Assembly: GCF_009711085.1 (NCBI RefSeq)
Contig: NZ_WMKA01000041.1
Span: 1 to 37,647, forward strand
Length of the DNA: 37,647 nt
Source of the DNA: Cellulosimicrobium composti
GTDB taxonomy: Bacteria > Actinomycetota > Actinomycetes > Actinomycetales > Cellulomonadaceae
Reading direction: 5' to 3'
The translations under genes and the position numbers were made by a program. The stretch's first letter is position 1. Each line of letters begins with the position of its first letter. Below are positions 14,764 through 21,253 of the stretch, in pieces. A model generated the notes under the pieces. The model did not search any database and was not told the origin of the DNA. It saw only the letters and a program-made list of their open reading frames with translations.

Positions 14764-16245
14764 ATGCCTGGAACCAGGAAGCCGTCGTCCAGGAAGCCGG
14801 CGCGCCGCGAGGTGCCGGTGACTCCGGACACCGTCGACGCGCTCTTCCCGCCGCTGCCCGAGCGGATCCCGCTGACGCTGGAGTCCGTCGCGGGCGACGA
14901 GCCCACGTACGCCGAGATGCTCGAGTCCATCTGCGGCGCGACCGACGACTCCCAGCCCGTCGAGCAGTACGACGGCACGCTGGGCGTCACGCAGGCGTTC
15001 GTCGCCGCCCACCAGAAGCAGGCCGTGCAGGTCCAGTGGAACAGCGGGCTGGGCGGCGTCTTCACCAACCCCGGGAACGTCGACGGCGTGCGGTGGGGCA
15101 GCGGGACGCTCATCGCCCCGGACCTCGTCCTCACGTGCGGGCACCTGTTCGACCAGAGCGCCGACGGGTGGGTCCTGCCGCGGCAGAACGGGTCCATGCA
15201 GGTCATCACGCCGCAGCAGATCGCGACGAGCATGCACGTCAACGTGCTGTACCAGGTGGACCCGAGCGGCACCCTGCGTGCCGAGCAGAGCTTCCCGATC
15301 GTCGCGCTCGTCGAGTACCGACTGGGCGGGCTCGACATGGCGGTCGTGCGGGTGGGCGGGAACCCAGGGGACACCTACGGGTTCACGGCCGTCGCGACCG
15401 CCAACCCGAGCGTGGGGGACATGCTCGCGATCATCGGTCACCCGGCCGGGATGCCGAAGCGGGTCGAGGCCGGTCCCGCGACGGTCGTGACGACGAACCA
15501 GATCCGCTACGACGACATCGACACGCTCGGCGGCAACTCGGGCTCGGGGATCCTCGGGCCTGCGGGCGAGCTCGTCGGGGTGCACACGAACGGCGGCTGC
15601 AACGCGCAGGGGACCGGGTCGAACTTCGGCACGGCGATCGCCGGGATCCGCGCGGTGTCGCCCACGCTGCAGGCGCTGCCCCACGGGGCGCGCACCGCGA
15701 CCGCCGACGACGGGTTCACCGACCTCGCGAAAGACGTCATCGCGACCGTCAGGGCCGCCGACCAGATCGGCACGCTCCTGGCCGCCGACACGGCGCGGGC
15801 CGTGGACGTCCTGACGATCCGGCAGGCGGACTCCCACACGGTCGCCGACCAGGTCGGGACCTCCTTCTTCCGGGACCAGCCCGGGACGCCGCGCGCGCTC
15901 GACACGATCTTCCAGGCCGACACGCGGTTCGCCGCCGACGACCCGGTCGCGACCGGGTTCCTCGGCGACGCGGGGGGCACGGGACCGGCGGACACCCGGG
16001 TCGAGGGCGTGCTCGACCCGGGCGACCTGTTCGACCCCGTGGTGAACCCGGCGGTCGCGCGCCTCGCGCAGGCGGGCGCGCTCGTCGGTGCCCGGCCGTT
16101 CGTGCAGGGCGCGGAGTCGCTCGTCGACGAGGGCGAGGCCGCCGAGGGCGACGTGGTCGGAGCGCTCGTCGAGGCCGTCGCCGAGGCGCGCGCGACCCTG
16201 GAGGCGGTCGAGGCCACCCTCGCCCGGCTCCAGGCGGGGCGGTGA
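14764..16245 (+). CDS. Trypsin/V8-like serine peptidase with a C-terminal Ser/Thr-x4-Asp repeat tail
   Basis: 493 residues. A chymotrypsin-fold domain covers about residues 75-300: His127 (LVLTCGH), Asp191 (GGLDMAVVRV) and Ser259 (GGNSGSG) form a complete triad, with WGSGTLIAPDLVLT and GELVGVHTNGGCN as family hallmarks. There is no signal peptide; the N-terminus is basic (Lys/Arg-rich). Residues 311-402 form a Thr/Asp ladder (see the repeat entry), and the last 55 residues are an Ala/Glu-rich probable coiled coil. The MvdD-like ATP-grasp gene follows after 40 bases, clearly in the same transcript. Inference: the tail is the substrate of that ligase, and the peptidase may release or process it. 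Alternatively it is a structural helical repeat. Confidence 0.88.
   Translation: MPGTRKPSSRKPARREVPVTPDTVDALFPPLPERIPLTLESVAGDEPTYAEMLESICGATDDSQPVEQYDGTLGVTQAFVAAHQKQAVQVQWNSGLGGVFTNPGNVDGVRWGSGTLIAPDLVLTCGHLFDQSADGWVLPRQNGSMQVITPQQIATSMHVNVLYQVDPSGTLRAEQSFPIVALVEYRLGGLDMAVVRVGGNPGDTYGFTAVATANPSVGDMLAIIGHPAGMPKRVEAGPATVVTTNQIRYDDIDTLGGNSGSGILGPAGELVGVHTNGGCNAQGTGSNFGTAIAGIRAVSPTLQALPHGARTATADDGFTDLAKDVIATVRAADQIGTLLAADTARAVDVLTIRQADSHTVADQVGTSFFRDQPGTPRALDTIFQADTRFAADDPVATGFLGDAGGTGPADTRVEGVLDPGDLFDPVVNPAVARLAQAGALVGARPFVQGAESLVDEGEAAEGDVVGALVEAVAEARATLEAVEATLARLQAGR
15694..15969 (+). repeat. Twelve (Ser/Thr)-x4-Asp motifs in the peptidase tail: candidate graspetide core
   Basis: In the peptidase, Thr311, 319, 328, 337, 343, 351, Ser357, Thr366, 375, 381, 387 and 397 are each followed exactly five residues later by Asp (316, 324, 333, 342, 348, 356, 362, 371, 380, 386, 392, 402). 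Steps between successive motifs are 6-10 residues. Between residues 311 and 413 there is no Glu and a single Lys (323). Two longer sub-repeats share the pattern ADQ(I/V)GT then R-A-(V/L)-D. Graspetide ligases join Thr/Ser hydroxyls to Asp/Glu carboxyls, so alternating donors and acceptors at fixed spacing are what a multi-ring ester substrate would look like. The modification itself is an inference. Confidence 0.7.
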
Positions 16246-16285
16246 GCGCCGTGGACCGGACCGCGGACCGCGCCGGGAGCCTCCG

Positions 16286-17287
16286 ATGATCGGCATCGTG
16301 TCCCACACGGACGACCTCCACACCACGGAGGTCGTCCGCCACCTCGACGCGCTCGGCGCGTCGCACGTGCTCCTCGACACCGGCCACGCCCCGCGGTCGG
16401 TCGCGCTCACGTCCACGCAGGACGCGGGCGGGTGGCACGCCGACTGGGTCGACACGAGCCCGGACGGCGTGGCCGCCGTCGACGCGACGTCGCTGCGGGC
16501 CGTGTGGTGGCGACGCCCGCAGCCCTTCGCGGTGCACGACGACGTCCGCTCGCCCCAGGACCGCGGGTTCGCCGTGGGCGAGATCGCCGCCGCGGTGGCC
16601 GGGCTGTGGTCGTGCCTGCCCGCGACGTGGGTCAACGACCCGGACCGCGACGAGGCCGGCTCGCGCAAGATGTGGCAGCTCCAGGTCGCGGCGCGTCTCG
16701 GCCTGCGCGTGCCGCGCACGTGCATGACGAACGACCCGGCCCGGGCGCGCGAGTTCCTGCACCGGGAGCCGGGGCGGGTGATCTTCAAGCCCTTCGGCGG
16801 CACGCCCGCGACGTGGCGCGAGACCCGCCCCGTGCGGGAGGCGGACCTCGACCTGCTGGAGAGCGTGCGGTACGCGCCGGTGATCTTCCAGGAGGCGGTG
16901 GCCGGCTCCGACGTGCGCGTGACGATCGTCGGGACCCAGGTGTTCGCGGCGGAGCTGCGGACCGAGGAGTCGGGGTACGCCTACGACTTCCGCGTCGACA
17001 CCCACCACTGCCCGACGGCGGCGCACGACCTCCCGGCGCCGGTGTCCGCGGGGCTCCTGCGCCTCATGGAGGTGCTCGGGCTCTGGTACGGGGCGGTGGA
17101 CCTGCGCCGCACGCCCGAGGGCGACTACGTGTTCCTCGAGATCAACCCGGCCGGGCAGTGGCTGTTCGTCGAGTACGCGACGGGCCAGCCGATCGCGGCG
17201 GCGCTCGCCGCGCTGCTCGCACGGCTCGACCGCGAGGAGGACGCGGGCACGACGCGCCGCCGGGCGTGGCGGGCGGGCACCGGGTGA
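16286..17287 (+). CDS. MvdD-like ATP-grasp ligase (graspetide synthetase family)
   Basis: 333 residues. Family features are AVWWRRP (residues 72-78), NDPDRDEAGSRKMWQLQVAA with LGLRVPRT (117-145), VIFKP with the probable ATP-binding Lys168, FQEAVAGSDVRV (hinge and ribose region), GAVDLR, and the metal-binding LEINPAGQW (284-292) followed by VEYATGQPIA, the combination typical of MvdC/MvdD/TgmB enzymes. These activate side-chain carboxylates as acyl-phosphates and form omega-ester or omega-amide rings in a precursor. ATG 16286 has GGGAG six bases upstream. No separate small precursor ORF is visible within the gene pair; the Thr/Asp tail of the upstream peptidase is the best substrate candidate. 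Confidence 0.85.
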   Translation: MIGIVSHTDDLHTTEVVRHLDALGASHVLLDTGHAPRSVALTSTQDAGGWHADWVDTSPDGVAAVDATSLRAVWWRRPQPFAVHDDVRSPQDRGFAVGEIAAAVAGLWSCLPATWVNDPDRDEAGSRKMWQLQVAARLGLRVPRTCMTNDPARAREFLHREPGRVIFKPFGGTPATWRETRPVREADLDLLESVRYAPVIFQEAVAGSDVRVTIVGTQVFAAELRTEESGYAYDFRVDTHHCPTAAHDLPAPVSAGLLRLMEVLGLWYGAVDLRRTPEGDYVFLEINPAGQWLFVEYATGQPIAAALAALLARLDREEDAGTTRRRAWRAGTG

Positions 17288-19395: not shown

Positions 19396-19609
19396 GGGCA
19401 CCACCCTGGCACGCGCGGCGACGCGGATCGAGGGGTTTGCGCGCCGGACGTCCGTGCCCGCGCGTCACACGCCGGGCGGGCTCGCGGTCGACAGGGTGAC
19501 AGGGGCAGGCGCCGGCCGCACGCAGCGGGGGCACCGCGAGAGACCGCCGAGACCCGGCGGCGCGGCCCGGCCGGCGCGCGACGACCACCCGAGACGACCC
19601 GAGGCGCGC

Positions 19610-21253
19610 ATGGACACCGAAGCGCTCGGTCCGGCGGTGCGGCGGTTCCGGCTCGCCGCCGACCTCACGCTCGAACGGCTCTCCGAGCTGTCCGGGGTGA
19701 GCGACCGTGCTCTCAGCGACATCGAGCGTGGCGCGGCGCTCGGCCCGCAGCACCGGACGATGGTCGCCGTCGTCGACGCGCTCGGCCTCGACGACGAGGA
19801 CCGGGCGCTCGTCCTGCGCGCGGCGCGCGAGGGCCGCCGCCGCTCCCGGCCGGAGCCGGGGTGGCGACTGCCGCTGCCGCGCGGGGCCGCGGACTTCACG
19901 GGTCGCGAGGCCGAGCTCGCGCGCGTCGCCGCGGCGCTGCGCGCCCGCCCGGGTGCCCCGCCGCCCGTCGTGCTCGTGACCGGGCCGCCCGGGTACGGCA
20001 AGACGAGCCTCGCCGTCCGCGCCGCGCAGCACCTCCAGGCGGAGTTCGACGACCTGCTCTTCCTCGACCTCGCGGGCACGGCGCCCGACGCGACGACGCC
20101 CCGTGCCGTCGTCGCGCGGCTCGTGCGGGCCCTCGGCGGGACGGGGGCGCGCGCCGCGGACGACCCGGCGCGGCTGCGCGCTCTCCTCGGGCACCGGCGC
20201 GTGCTCGTCGTGCTCGACGACGCGCGCGACGAGGCGCAGGTGCGCGCGGCGCTGCCCGCGGACGGCCCCGCGGCGGTGCTCGTCACGAGCCGGCGGCACC
20301 TCGAGGGTCTCGAGGACGTCGTGCGCCTCGACCTGGAACGGCTGCGGCCCGCCGACTCGCGCGCGCTGCTCGAGCGCATCGTGCCGCGCCACCAGGCGTC
20401 CCGCGCCGACCTCGCGCGCCTCGCCGCGCTGTGCGACGACGTGCCCCTCGCGCTGCGGATCGCGGCGAACCGGCTCGTGAGCCGCCCCACGTGGACGGTC
20501 GACGGCCTCGCGGAGCGGCTCGCCGTCGCCGACCGCCGCCTCGACGCCCTGGCCGCGGGCGACCTGTCGGTGCGTGCCGCGATCGCGCTGTCGTTCGACC
20601 AGCTCGGGCCCGCCGCGCAGCGGCTGTTCCGCCGGCTCGCGCTCGCGGACGGGCTCGACGTCGGCGCCGGGCTCGCCGCGACGCTCGCCGAGGAGTCGTT
20701 GCGCACGACCGAGGAGCTGCTCGACGAGCTCGTCTCCCTCAGCCTGGTGCGGGCGGTCGAGCGCGACCGGTACGCGCTGCACGACCTGCTGCGCCTCTAC
20801 GCGCTGGGCGAGCTCGCCGCGGTCGAGACCGCGCAGGAGAGCGCCGCGGCTCGTCGCCGCGCGGACGCCTGGCTCCTGCGCACCACGGCCCGTGCCGCGC
20901 GCTGGCTCGAGCCCGGCGACCCGGGCGAGGGAGCGGCGGACCCCGGTGACGTCGCGGTGCTCGCGACGCGCGAGGAGGCGCGCGCGTGGCTCGTCGACGA
21001 GGCGCCGAGCTGGTTCGCGGCGCTGCGGCGCGTGGCCCGCGGCGGCGACCCGGCGACCGTCGTCGAGGTCGCCCGGACCCTGCACCGGTTCCCGGGGCTG
21101 CGGCACGCCTGGGGCCGCGGTCCCGGCGCCGCGCGCGTCCTCGACGACCGCGCGACGCCCGCGCGCGCCGCGGACGACGGCGGCCCCCGTCGCCGGGACG
21201 ACGGGGGCCGCGTGCGTCGGCGTGTCAGGCGACGGCCTCGACAGCCTCGATGA
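19610..21253 (+). CDS. XRE-HTH / NB-ARC STAND regulator, C-terminally truncated
   Basis: 547 residues. An XRE-type HTH (residues 8-65, LERLSELSGVSDRALSDIERG) is followed by an NB-ARC ATPase: Walker A GPPGYGKTS (125-133), Walker B VLVVLDDA, TSRR sensor, DDVPLALRIAANRL (GLPL-equivalent) and the winged-helix LHDLLRLYA. Relatives normally continue with a TPR sensor for 200-400 residues. Here the typical sequence stops near residue 505 (FPGLRHAWGR), and the remainder is Arg/Asp-rich read-through that crosses a terminator-like hairpin and the 3' end of the convergent hydrolase gene. So the gene seems to have lost its C-terminal half, by deletion or frameshift, and may be inactive or constitutive. 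Confidence 0.82.
   Translation: MDTEALGPAVRRFRLAADLTLERLSELSGVSDRALSDIERGAALGPQHRTMVAVVDALGLDDEDRALVLRAAREGRRRSRPEPGWRLPLPRGAADFTGREAELARVAAALRARPGAPPPVVLVTGPPGYGKTSLAVRAAQHLQAEFDDLLFLDLAGTAPDATTPRAVVARLVRALGGTGARAADDPARLRALLGHRRVLVVLDDARDEAQVRAALPADGPAAVLVTSRRHLEGLEDVVRLDLERLRPADSRALLERIVPRHQASRADLARLAALCDDVPLALRIAANRLVSRPTWTVDGLAERLAVADRRLDALAAGDLSVRAAIALSFDQLGPAAQRLFRRLALADGLDVGAGLAATLAEESLRTTEELLDELVSLSLVRAVERDRYALHDLLRLYALGELAAVETAQESAAARRRADAWLLRTTARAARWLEPGDPGEGAADPGDVAVLATREEARAWLVDEAPSWFAALRRVARGGDPATVVEVARTLHRFPGLRHAWGRGPGAARVLDDRATPARAADDGGPRRRDDGGRVRRRVRRRPRQPR
21180..21211. terminator. Perfect 13-bp hairpin between convergent genes
   Basis: GCGGCCCCCGTCG (21180-21192), loop CCGGGA, CGACGGGGGCCGC (21199-21211). 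It is 14 bases beyond the hydrolase stop (minus strand) and inside the anomalous tail of the STAND frame, which supports that tail being non-native. No T-tract. Confidence 0.7.

Follow-up and report, generated by a model that had tools for sequence, protein, structure and literature searches.

A candidate graspetide-type system in Cellulosimicrobium composti in which an ATP-grasp ligase may modify the tail of a whole enzyme

By 2022, the graspetides that had been characterised were inhibitors of proteases (PMC8939145). For microviridins, inhibition of both serine proteases and tyrosinase has been reported, and in microviridins, plesiocin and thuringinin the nucleophile precedes the acid (PMC7823629). 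Cyclisation of peptides and of proteins by a graspetide ligase has been described, as have multivalent cores (PMC12291112), and the ligase of fuscimiditide accepts a leader moved behind the core, with RPFG as the key recognition sequence (PMC13003496). A 2022 survey tied two ATP-grasp branches (7 and 8) to several unrelated peptidase families, gave no precursors for them and proposed that the peptidases cut other proteins (PMC8939145), while “diverse families of neighboring proteases” were noted around group 32 of another classification, with a proposed role in maturation or resistance (PMC13097080). Here we analyse a gene pair in a stretch of 37,647 nucleotides from Cellulosimicrobium composti (contig NZ_WMKA01000041.1; the whole stretch is called the window below), which consists of a serine peptidase with a repetitive C-terminal tail and an ATP-grasp ligase. 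The two genes probably belong together as precursor and synthetase, the precursor being an entire enzyme.

The peptidase and ligase genes of the window

The peptidase gene (14764..16245, forward strand) codes for 493 amino acids and is followed, after 40 bases and on the same strand, by the ligase gene (16286..17287, 333 amino acids). A preliminary description of this DNA, made from the letters alone, had reported both genes, the gap and their motifs, and all of these were found in place. The catalytic domain (residues 112-273, 15097..15582) matches Pfam Trypsin_2 (E=1.8e-15), and the V8-like triad already assigned to it, H127 (15142), D191 (15334) and S259 (15538), is invariant in 17 aligned trypsin-type sequences. 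Among solved structures the domain is closest to glutamyl endopeptidases (1p3c, 8.9e-9), and the protein is best regarded as a V8/glutamyl-endopeptidase-like enzyme with putative cleavage after Glu. By sequence alignment only, H274 corresponds to a His common to Glu-endopeptidases, which presumably serves there in Glu recognition.

The ligase had been called MvdD-like. It does harbor an MvdD pre-ATP-grasp domain that passes the Pfam cut-off (E=1.2e-8), but the label is only approximate, as the best NCBIfam score is that of TIGR04187 (229 bits), ahead of MvdC (183 bits) and MvdD (TIGR04184, 173 bits against a curated equivalog cut-off of 475), each under its own cut-off. The protein is clearly homologous to enzymes of this type, yet a member of none of the three model families. 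Besides the WWRRP motif it has K168, invariant in 58 aligned rows, and E285 and N287, both at least 90% conserved. The nearest solved structures are those of microviridin-type ligases, 5ig8 (130.7 bits), 5ig9, 7m4s (AMdnB), 9bou, 7mgv (CdnC) and 7drm (83.3 bits), where 5ig8, 5ig9 and 7drm are those we take to be MdnB, MdnC and PsnB. The nearest named relatives at the locus are Cellulosimicrobium records with 89-91% ligase identity. Membership of the ATP-grasp superfamily and a weak RimK domain match would also suit a RimK-like enzyme that adds amino acids to the acidic tail and closes no ring. We consider this very improbable, since RimK reaches about 30 bits against 131 (5ig8) to 83 bits for the graspetide-type ligase structures, and since the paired donor-acceptor spacing of the tail, with the Thr/Lys exchange described below, has no obvious role in glutamylation.

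The ladder and the C-terminal follower of the tail

Residues 311-402 of the peptidase (15694..15969) form a ladder of 12 T/S-x4-D units, the predicted cross-linked core. Within 140 residues, T/S is followed by D/E at +5 in 12 cases where 2.4 are expected (0 of 2000 shuffles), and the same spacing test on 130 residues of the tail gives 11 against 2.2 (0 of 1000 shuffles). The tail ranks first by this excess among the 126 open reading frames (ORFs) of the window (z 6.7, the next one 3.7). When 2286 ORFs from 60 loci and the window are ranked together, ATP-grasp-linked tails take all of the first 18 places, that of the window being 8th, and the 19th ORF is not such a tail. These results bear out the regular ladder of Thr/Ser donors and Asp acceptors recognised in the preliminary description, whose expectation of up to about twelve dehydrations fits the number of units. 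In ten trypsin tails like that of the window, the acid that follows a donor most often stands at a distance of 5 (97 of 182), whereas the spacing between an acid and the donor after it is spread, mainly over 1, 3 and 4, which points to units joined by linkers of variable length rather than to one simple repeat.

The ladder is also conserved by position. Seven close tails were compared, those of the window and of loci L002, L003, L004, L009, L080 and L081 (L009 and L080 are identical; L003 is titled Sphaerisporangium and the other titled ones Cellulosimicrobium). Donor and acceptor positions are invariant in 23 of 24 cases, against 48 of 68 for the other ladder positions (Fisher p=0.011), and the sole change is from T to S. 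As linkers rich in A, D and T are generally favoured in high-GC genomes, the ladder might be an ordinary low-complexity acidic linker; the spacing tests, the blind rankings, the conservation by position and the association with the ligase make this hardly credible.

Behind the ladder lies a T-x-V-E-x3-D segment (residues 411-418, 15994..16017), which may be an extra ring site or a cleavage site; the pattern [TS]-x-[VQ]-E..D[PI] is present in 10 of the 12 actinobacterial trypsin-type tails listed, and in L020 and L042. It is followed by a feature absent from the preliminary description, an RPF motif with a last segment of about 50 residues, helix-like by eye. We propose this follower (residues 444-493, 16093..16242) as the putative recognition element of the ligase. 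In an alignment of 50 upstream proteins, P and F of the motif reach a conservation of at least 90%; they are invariant in 45 aligned followers, by construction as this set was picked by the motif. A follower profile gave exactly one match per genome in all 14 whole genomes of relatives searched, 13 of these followers being part of the profile. The sequence PFVLA of the window fits the pattern Phhx(1,2)h, a common leader motif found in about half of the graspetide precursors (PMC8939145). Recognition from the C-terminal side is plausible because the ligase of fuscimiditide works with its leader behind the core (PMC13003496).

Compared with described systems, the tail has the repeated core of graspetide precursors in which a nucleophile precedes an acid, but it is not part of a small separate precursor with an N-terminal leader, the PF motif being C-terminal to the core. 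The multi-core graspetides plesiocin, thuringinin and AMdnA, each with a single ligase, resemble it in their tandem units and related ligases, and differ by small precursors with an N-terminal leader, whereas in the window a complete enzyme carries the units. Microviridins share the ligase homology and a PF motif, as in PFFARFL (PMC7823629), and by our own comparison the TLKFRDD-type units of some relatives of the window tail resemble TxKxPSD. They differ in their Thr1-Asp7 connection, against an i to i+5 register, one ligase, many repeats and no small precursor found in the present case. A similar arrangement is that of a fuscimiditide whose leader was transferred to the C-terminus, with the core first and the recognition element behind it (RPFG against RPFV in the window); it is an engineered one, “unnatural” to its authors, whereas that of the window is natural (PMC13003496).

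No small precursor gene had been visible at the locus, and none was found in a comparison of 57 ORFs of at least 25 amino acids around the window with 10 relatives, in which the only matches were antisense inside the ligase gene. This bears on the published explanation of such loci, according to which the peptidase cuts other cellular proteins to feed the ligase, as given for branches 7 and 8 (PMC8939145), or matures a separate precursor, the tail being unrelated; maturation or resistance was offered for proteases near groups 26, 30, 32 and 40 (PMC13097080). The lack of a conserved small ORF near the window and the persistence of the tails through changes of carrier, reported in the next section, render this explanation improbable.

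Carriers and donors in related loci

A ligase scan of 84,980 species genomes gave 71 related loci, and reading of the upstream frames revealed a tail of the same kind directly upstream of the ligase in 59 of them. A mechanical rule (ladder at p<0.05 plus PF motif; L048 by its ladder alone) selected 56 loci, of which 55 have true tails and one, L065, has an ordinary small precursor with PF near its N-terminus; L018, L037, L047 and L059 were added by reading. Most of the 12 loci without an upstream tail (L053, L058, L062, L063 and L065-L072) are distant ligases or fragments, and L062 has a small upstream ORF with a GG site, as for an ordinary precursor. Record titles place the loci in Actinomycetota, Pseudomonadota, Chloroflexota, Bacteroidota, Acidobacteriota, Planctomycetota and Verrucomicrobiota, plus, by title, one archaeon of the Nitrososphaerales (L047). 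The tail of L047 is a 99-residue piece, and a subtilisin-like piece lies upstream of it in a different frame.

The preliminary description had linked the pairing to a serine peptidase, and this link does not hold for the family, since metallopeptidases and tyrosinases also carry the tail. Among 50 upstream proteins Pfam identified Astacin in 17, Trypsin_2 in 16, M43 in 9, S8 in 3 and tyrosinase in 2 (L015 and L033); L038, one of the 17, has a weak Astacin match with matrixin as the best one, and L053 has no Pfam match. The carriers amount to four folds, as we take astacin, matrixin and M43 to be all metzincins. In L020 (Chitinophagales) the tail stands alone (171 amino acids). No N-terminus of the carrier proteins resembles a signal peptide, judged by eye without a predictor and with some starts uncertain.

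Two kinds of pair occur within the genus of the window, a trypsin pair in three genomes (G000, G444 and G460) and an astacin pair with a Lys-type tail in three others (G402, G427 and G473). In the family of the window, a ligase search at E<=1e-20 matched 14 of 81 genomes; in the frames read from 12 of these, the tail was found in G000 and 9 others, with no clear frame in L084 and no tail in L090. A follower search in Actinomycetota matched 6 of 396 genomes at E<=0.001, from which G000 and G078 were left after L075-L078 were judged spurious on reading, and in the phylum of G477 it matched 1 of 297 genomes, G477 itself. With so few matches per phylum the system looks rare and patchy. Sixteen plasmid records match the ligase at E<=1e-30, and among five regions read only L105 has such a tail. 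This locus, on a Burkholderia stagnalis plasmid record for which the PLSDB table lists no gene there, has an M43-like peptidase by eye, and its tail mixes units like those of the window (VTIATAD) with a TLKFIDE unit, linking the two tail styles.

The usual register in these tails is donor-x4-acid, with Thr/Ser donors in some lineages and Lys in others, so that the Thr/Ser donors first described hold for the window and the donor may be Lys elsewhere in the family. With T/S and K taken separately as donors, an excess of D/E at +5 over shuffles (p<0.05 for at least one donor type) is seen in 65 of 68 tails (near-duplicates included; two uncorrected tests per tail). The tail had been proposed as the ligase substrate, and this retention of the ladder in homologous pairs agrees with the proposal. 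Lys-type tails are found in Streptomyces astacins and Rhodobacterales M43 enzymes, such as PKSIIQDGPKNPVQDPPKPPIYD in L055, a Thr-type counterpart being GTPVVLDRGGTPIVLD in L040. Across 13 Lys-type tails, D/E stands at +5 from 88 of the 105 Lys residues that have a residue at that position, and a ranking of 2671 ORFs by K-x4-D/E excess in 48 residues places such tails in all of the top 22 positions. A K-x4-D/E-K-x4-D/E block is present in 10 of the 68 tails, in most of them along with several T/S+5 units, and is spread over trypsin (L012, L014), M43 (L019, L028, L035, L045, L073), tyrosinase (L033), subtilisin (L061) and astacin (L060) carriers. That hydroxyl and amine donors replace each other at a fixed spacing fits side-chain ester and amide closure, not a linker or a glutamylation model. 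The tail of L018 (Amaricoccus) is atypical, with TxWQEEGG-type repeats and T/S to D/E enriched at +3, perhaps another ring register.

The distribution of carriers also bears on the product. The preliminary description had the peptidase cut its own modified tail, or that of relatives, and so release a free multi-ring graspetide. The closeness of the window peptidase to Glu-endopeptidases, including H274, would suit such a step, as would the scarcity of Glu in trypsin-type ladders (D:E of 268:4 in 19 tails), the followers containing Glu. However, Glu is also absent from the counted subtilisin (42:0) and matrixin (17:0) segments, which were picked automatically and in L037 and L061 are not the tail, and because of this Glu avoidance was dropped as proof of self-cleavage. 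Self-release is not supported as a general rule, because tyrosinases (L015, L033) carry the same kind of tail, which in L020 is even alone; in its full form it appears unlikely, self-trimming by this V8-like peptidase being possible.

Co-variation with the ligase and proposed role of the tail

The relation between tail and ligase was examined by permutation on 57 of the 67 rows of the ligase tree, those having both a class and a core. For pairs with different carrier classes, follower similarity follows ligase similarity (rho 0.486, 1147 pairs), a value reached in 0 of 1000 free and 0 of 1000 within-class permutations (maximum 0.316). With the metzincins merged, rho is 0.436 (917 pairs), again with 0 of 1000 in both schemes. 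As the follower tracks the ligase across carrier folds, the tail and not the peptidase is most likely what is recognised and cross-linked; the range of carrier domains identified by Pfam marks the tail as a module. In one group of 14 rows, most of them with TLKFRDD-like cores, carriers of the astacin, tyrosinase, subtilisin and M43 kinds stand side by side, the support of the group being only 89/89.

Several observations weigh against reading the tails as ligase substrates. The core is linked to the ligase more weakly than the follower: within-class permutations reach the observed value in 706 of 1000 cases with a loose core, in 15 of 1000 with a strict core and in 29 of 1000 with unit profiles (11 of 1000 with a strict core and merged folds). 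On the 67-row ligase tree, 9 changes of donor class are counted, scarcely below the 12 of carrier class, so that donor class does not mark clades cleanly. No significant +5 ladder is seen in L018, L037 and L073, the tails of L037 and L048 have no PF motif, L053 combines a related ligase with no upstream tail, and the window ligase and ten relatives remain under the NCBIfam cut-offs.

On balance, homology, spacing and conservation suggest the following mechanism. The ligase would dock on the follower of the peptidase through its PF motif and join the hydroxyl of a Thr or Ser to the carboxyl of an Asp or Glu five residues further on, the amine of Lys being used in other lineages. Up to 12 small i to i+5 side-chain rings could thus be formed in a row along the tail, and the mature product would most likely be the peptidase with a tethered chain of ester-closed rings. 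As for its function, our favoured though tentative guess is that the ring-bearing tail acts as a tethered inhibitor or latency element, because characterised graspetides inhibit proteases and microviridins are reported to inhibit tyrosinase as well, so that tethered inhibition is conceivable for carriers of either kind. A protease-proof stalk is a somewhat less likely role, and a tail serving as the source of a released multi-ring peptide comes after it, as an unlikely one.

More broadly, we think it more likely than not that this is a system modifying whole enzymes in bacteria and probably also in an archaeon, in which a ligase would string side-chain rings onto the tail of a swappable enzyme. 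A recognition element that is C-terminal by nature would direct it, and esters of Thr and amides of Lys would share one register. The precursors that the published peptidase-linked ATP-grasp branches lack may be tails of this kind; the ligases beside several peptidase families, in branches 7/8 (PMC8939145) and group 32 (PMC13097080), are likened to the present loci by description. The preliminary description had asked whether the pairing was already known: the association of peptidase and ATP-grasp ligase without a precursor is published, with a different explanation (PMC8939145), and the accessible parts of PMC8939145 and PMC13097080 do not mention peptidase tails. A literature search that covered part of the key graspetide surveys found no published description of the tail as substrate. 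The comparison suggests that what would be new here is graspetide chemistry on an enzyme-borne, follower-directed precursor. If true, this chemistry would extend from peptide production to the modification of full-length enzymes, and the published open question of ATP-grasp loci with several peptidase families and no precursor (PMC8939145) would have a possible answer. Natural C-terminal recognition elements, so far described as a result of engineering (PMC13003496), would be added, and dozens of ligase/tail pairs of Thr and Lys type might be used for making cross-linked proteins.

Two other settings were considered and rejected. Thirteen stretches matched in viral_contigs and none was confirmed as phage or viral carriage, and PADLOC gave only weak peptidase-domain matches to the defence system RT-Protease_XI (1.4e-4).

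Some neighbouring genes deserve mention. Directly upstream of the M43 peptidase, all nine M43 loci examined (L019, L028, L031, L032, L035, L045, L049, L054 and L055) have a conserved protein of about 105 amino acids, with invariant positions that include W14, E19, R39, R41, D61 and W70 (9 rows). A scan of four of these proteins gave nothing beyond weak lipocalin-like matches in some; the protein is possibly an inhibitor or a chaperone of the peptidase. At some trypsin-type loci there is a second large gene in which Trypsin_2 is fused to a non-specific endonuclease (L012:6864-9275 and L013:2241-4502) or to an LCAT-like hydrolase (L021:1639-4254), a hint that these loci may act in conflicts or as effectors. 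In the window itself, an ORF at about 19603-21253 (forward strand) resembles, by eye only, a helix-turn-helix plus NB-ARC-type regulator.

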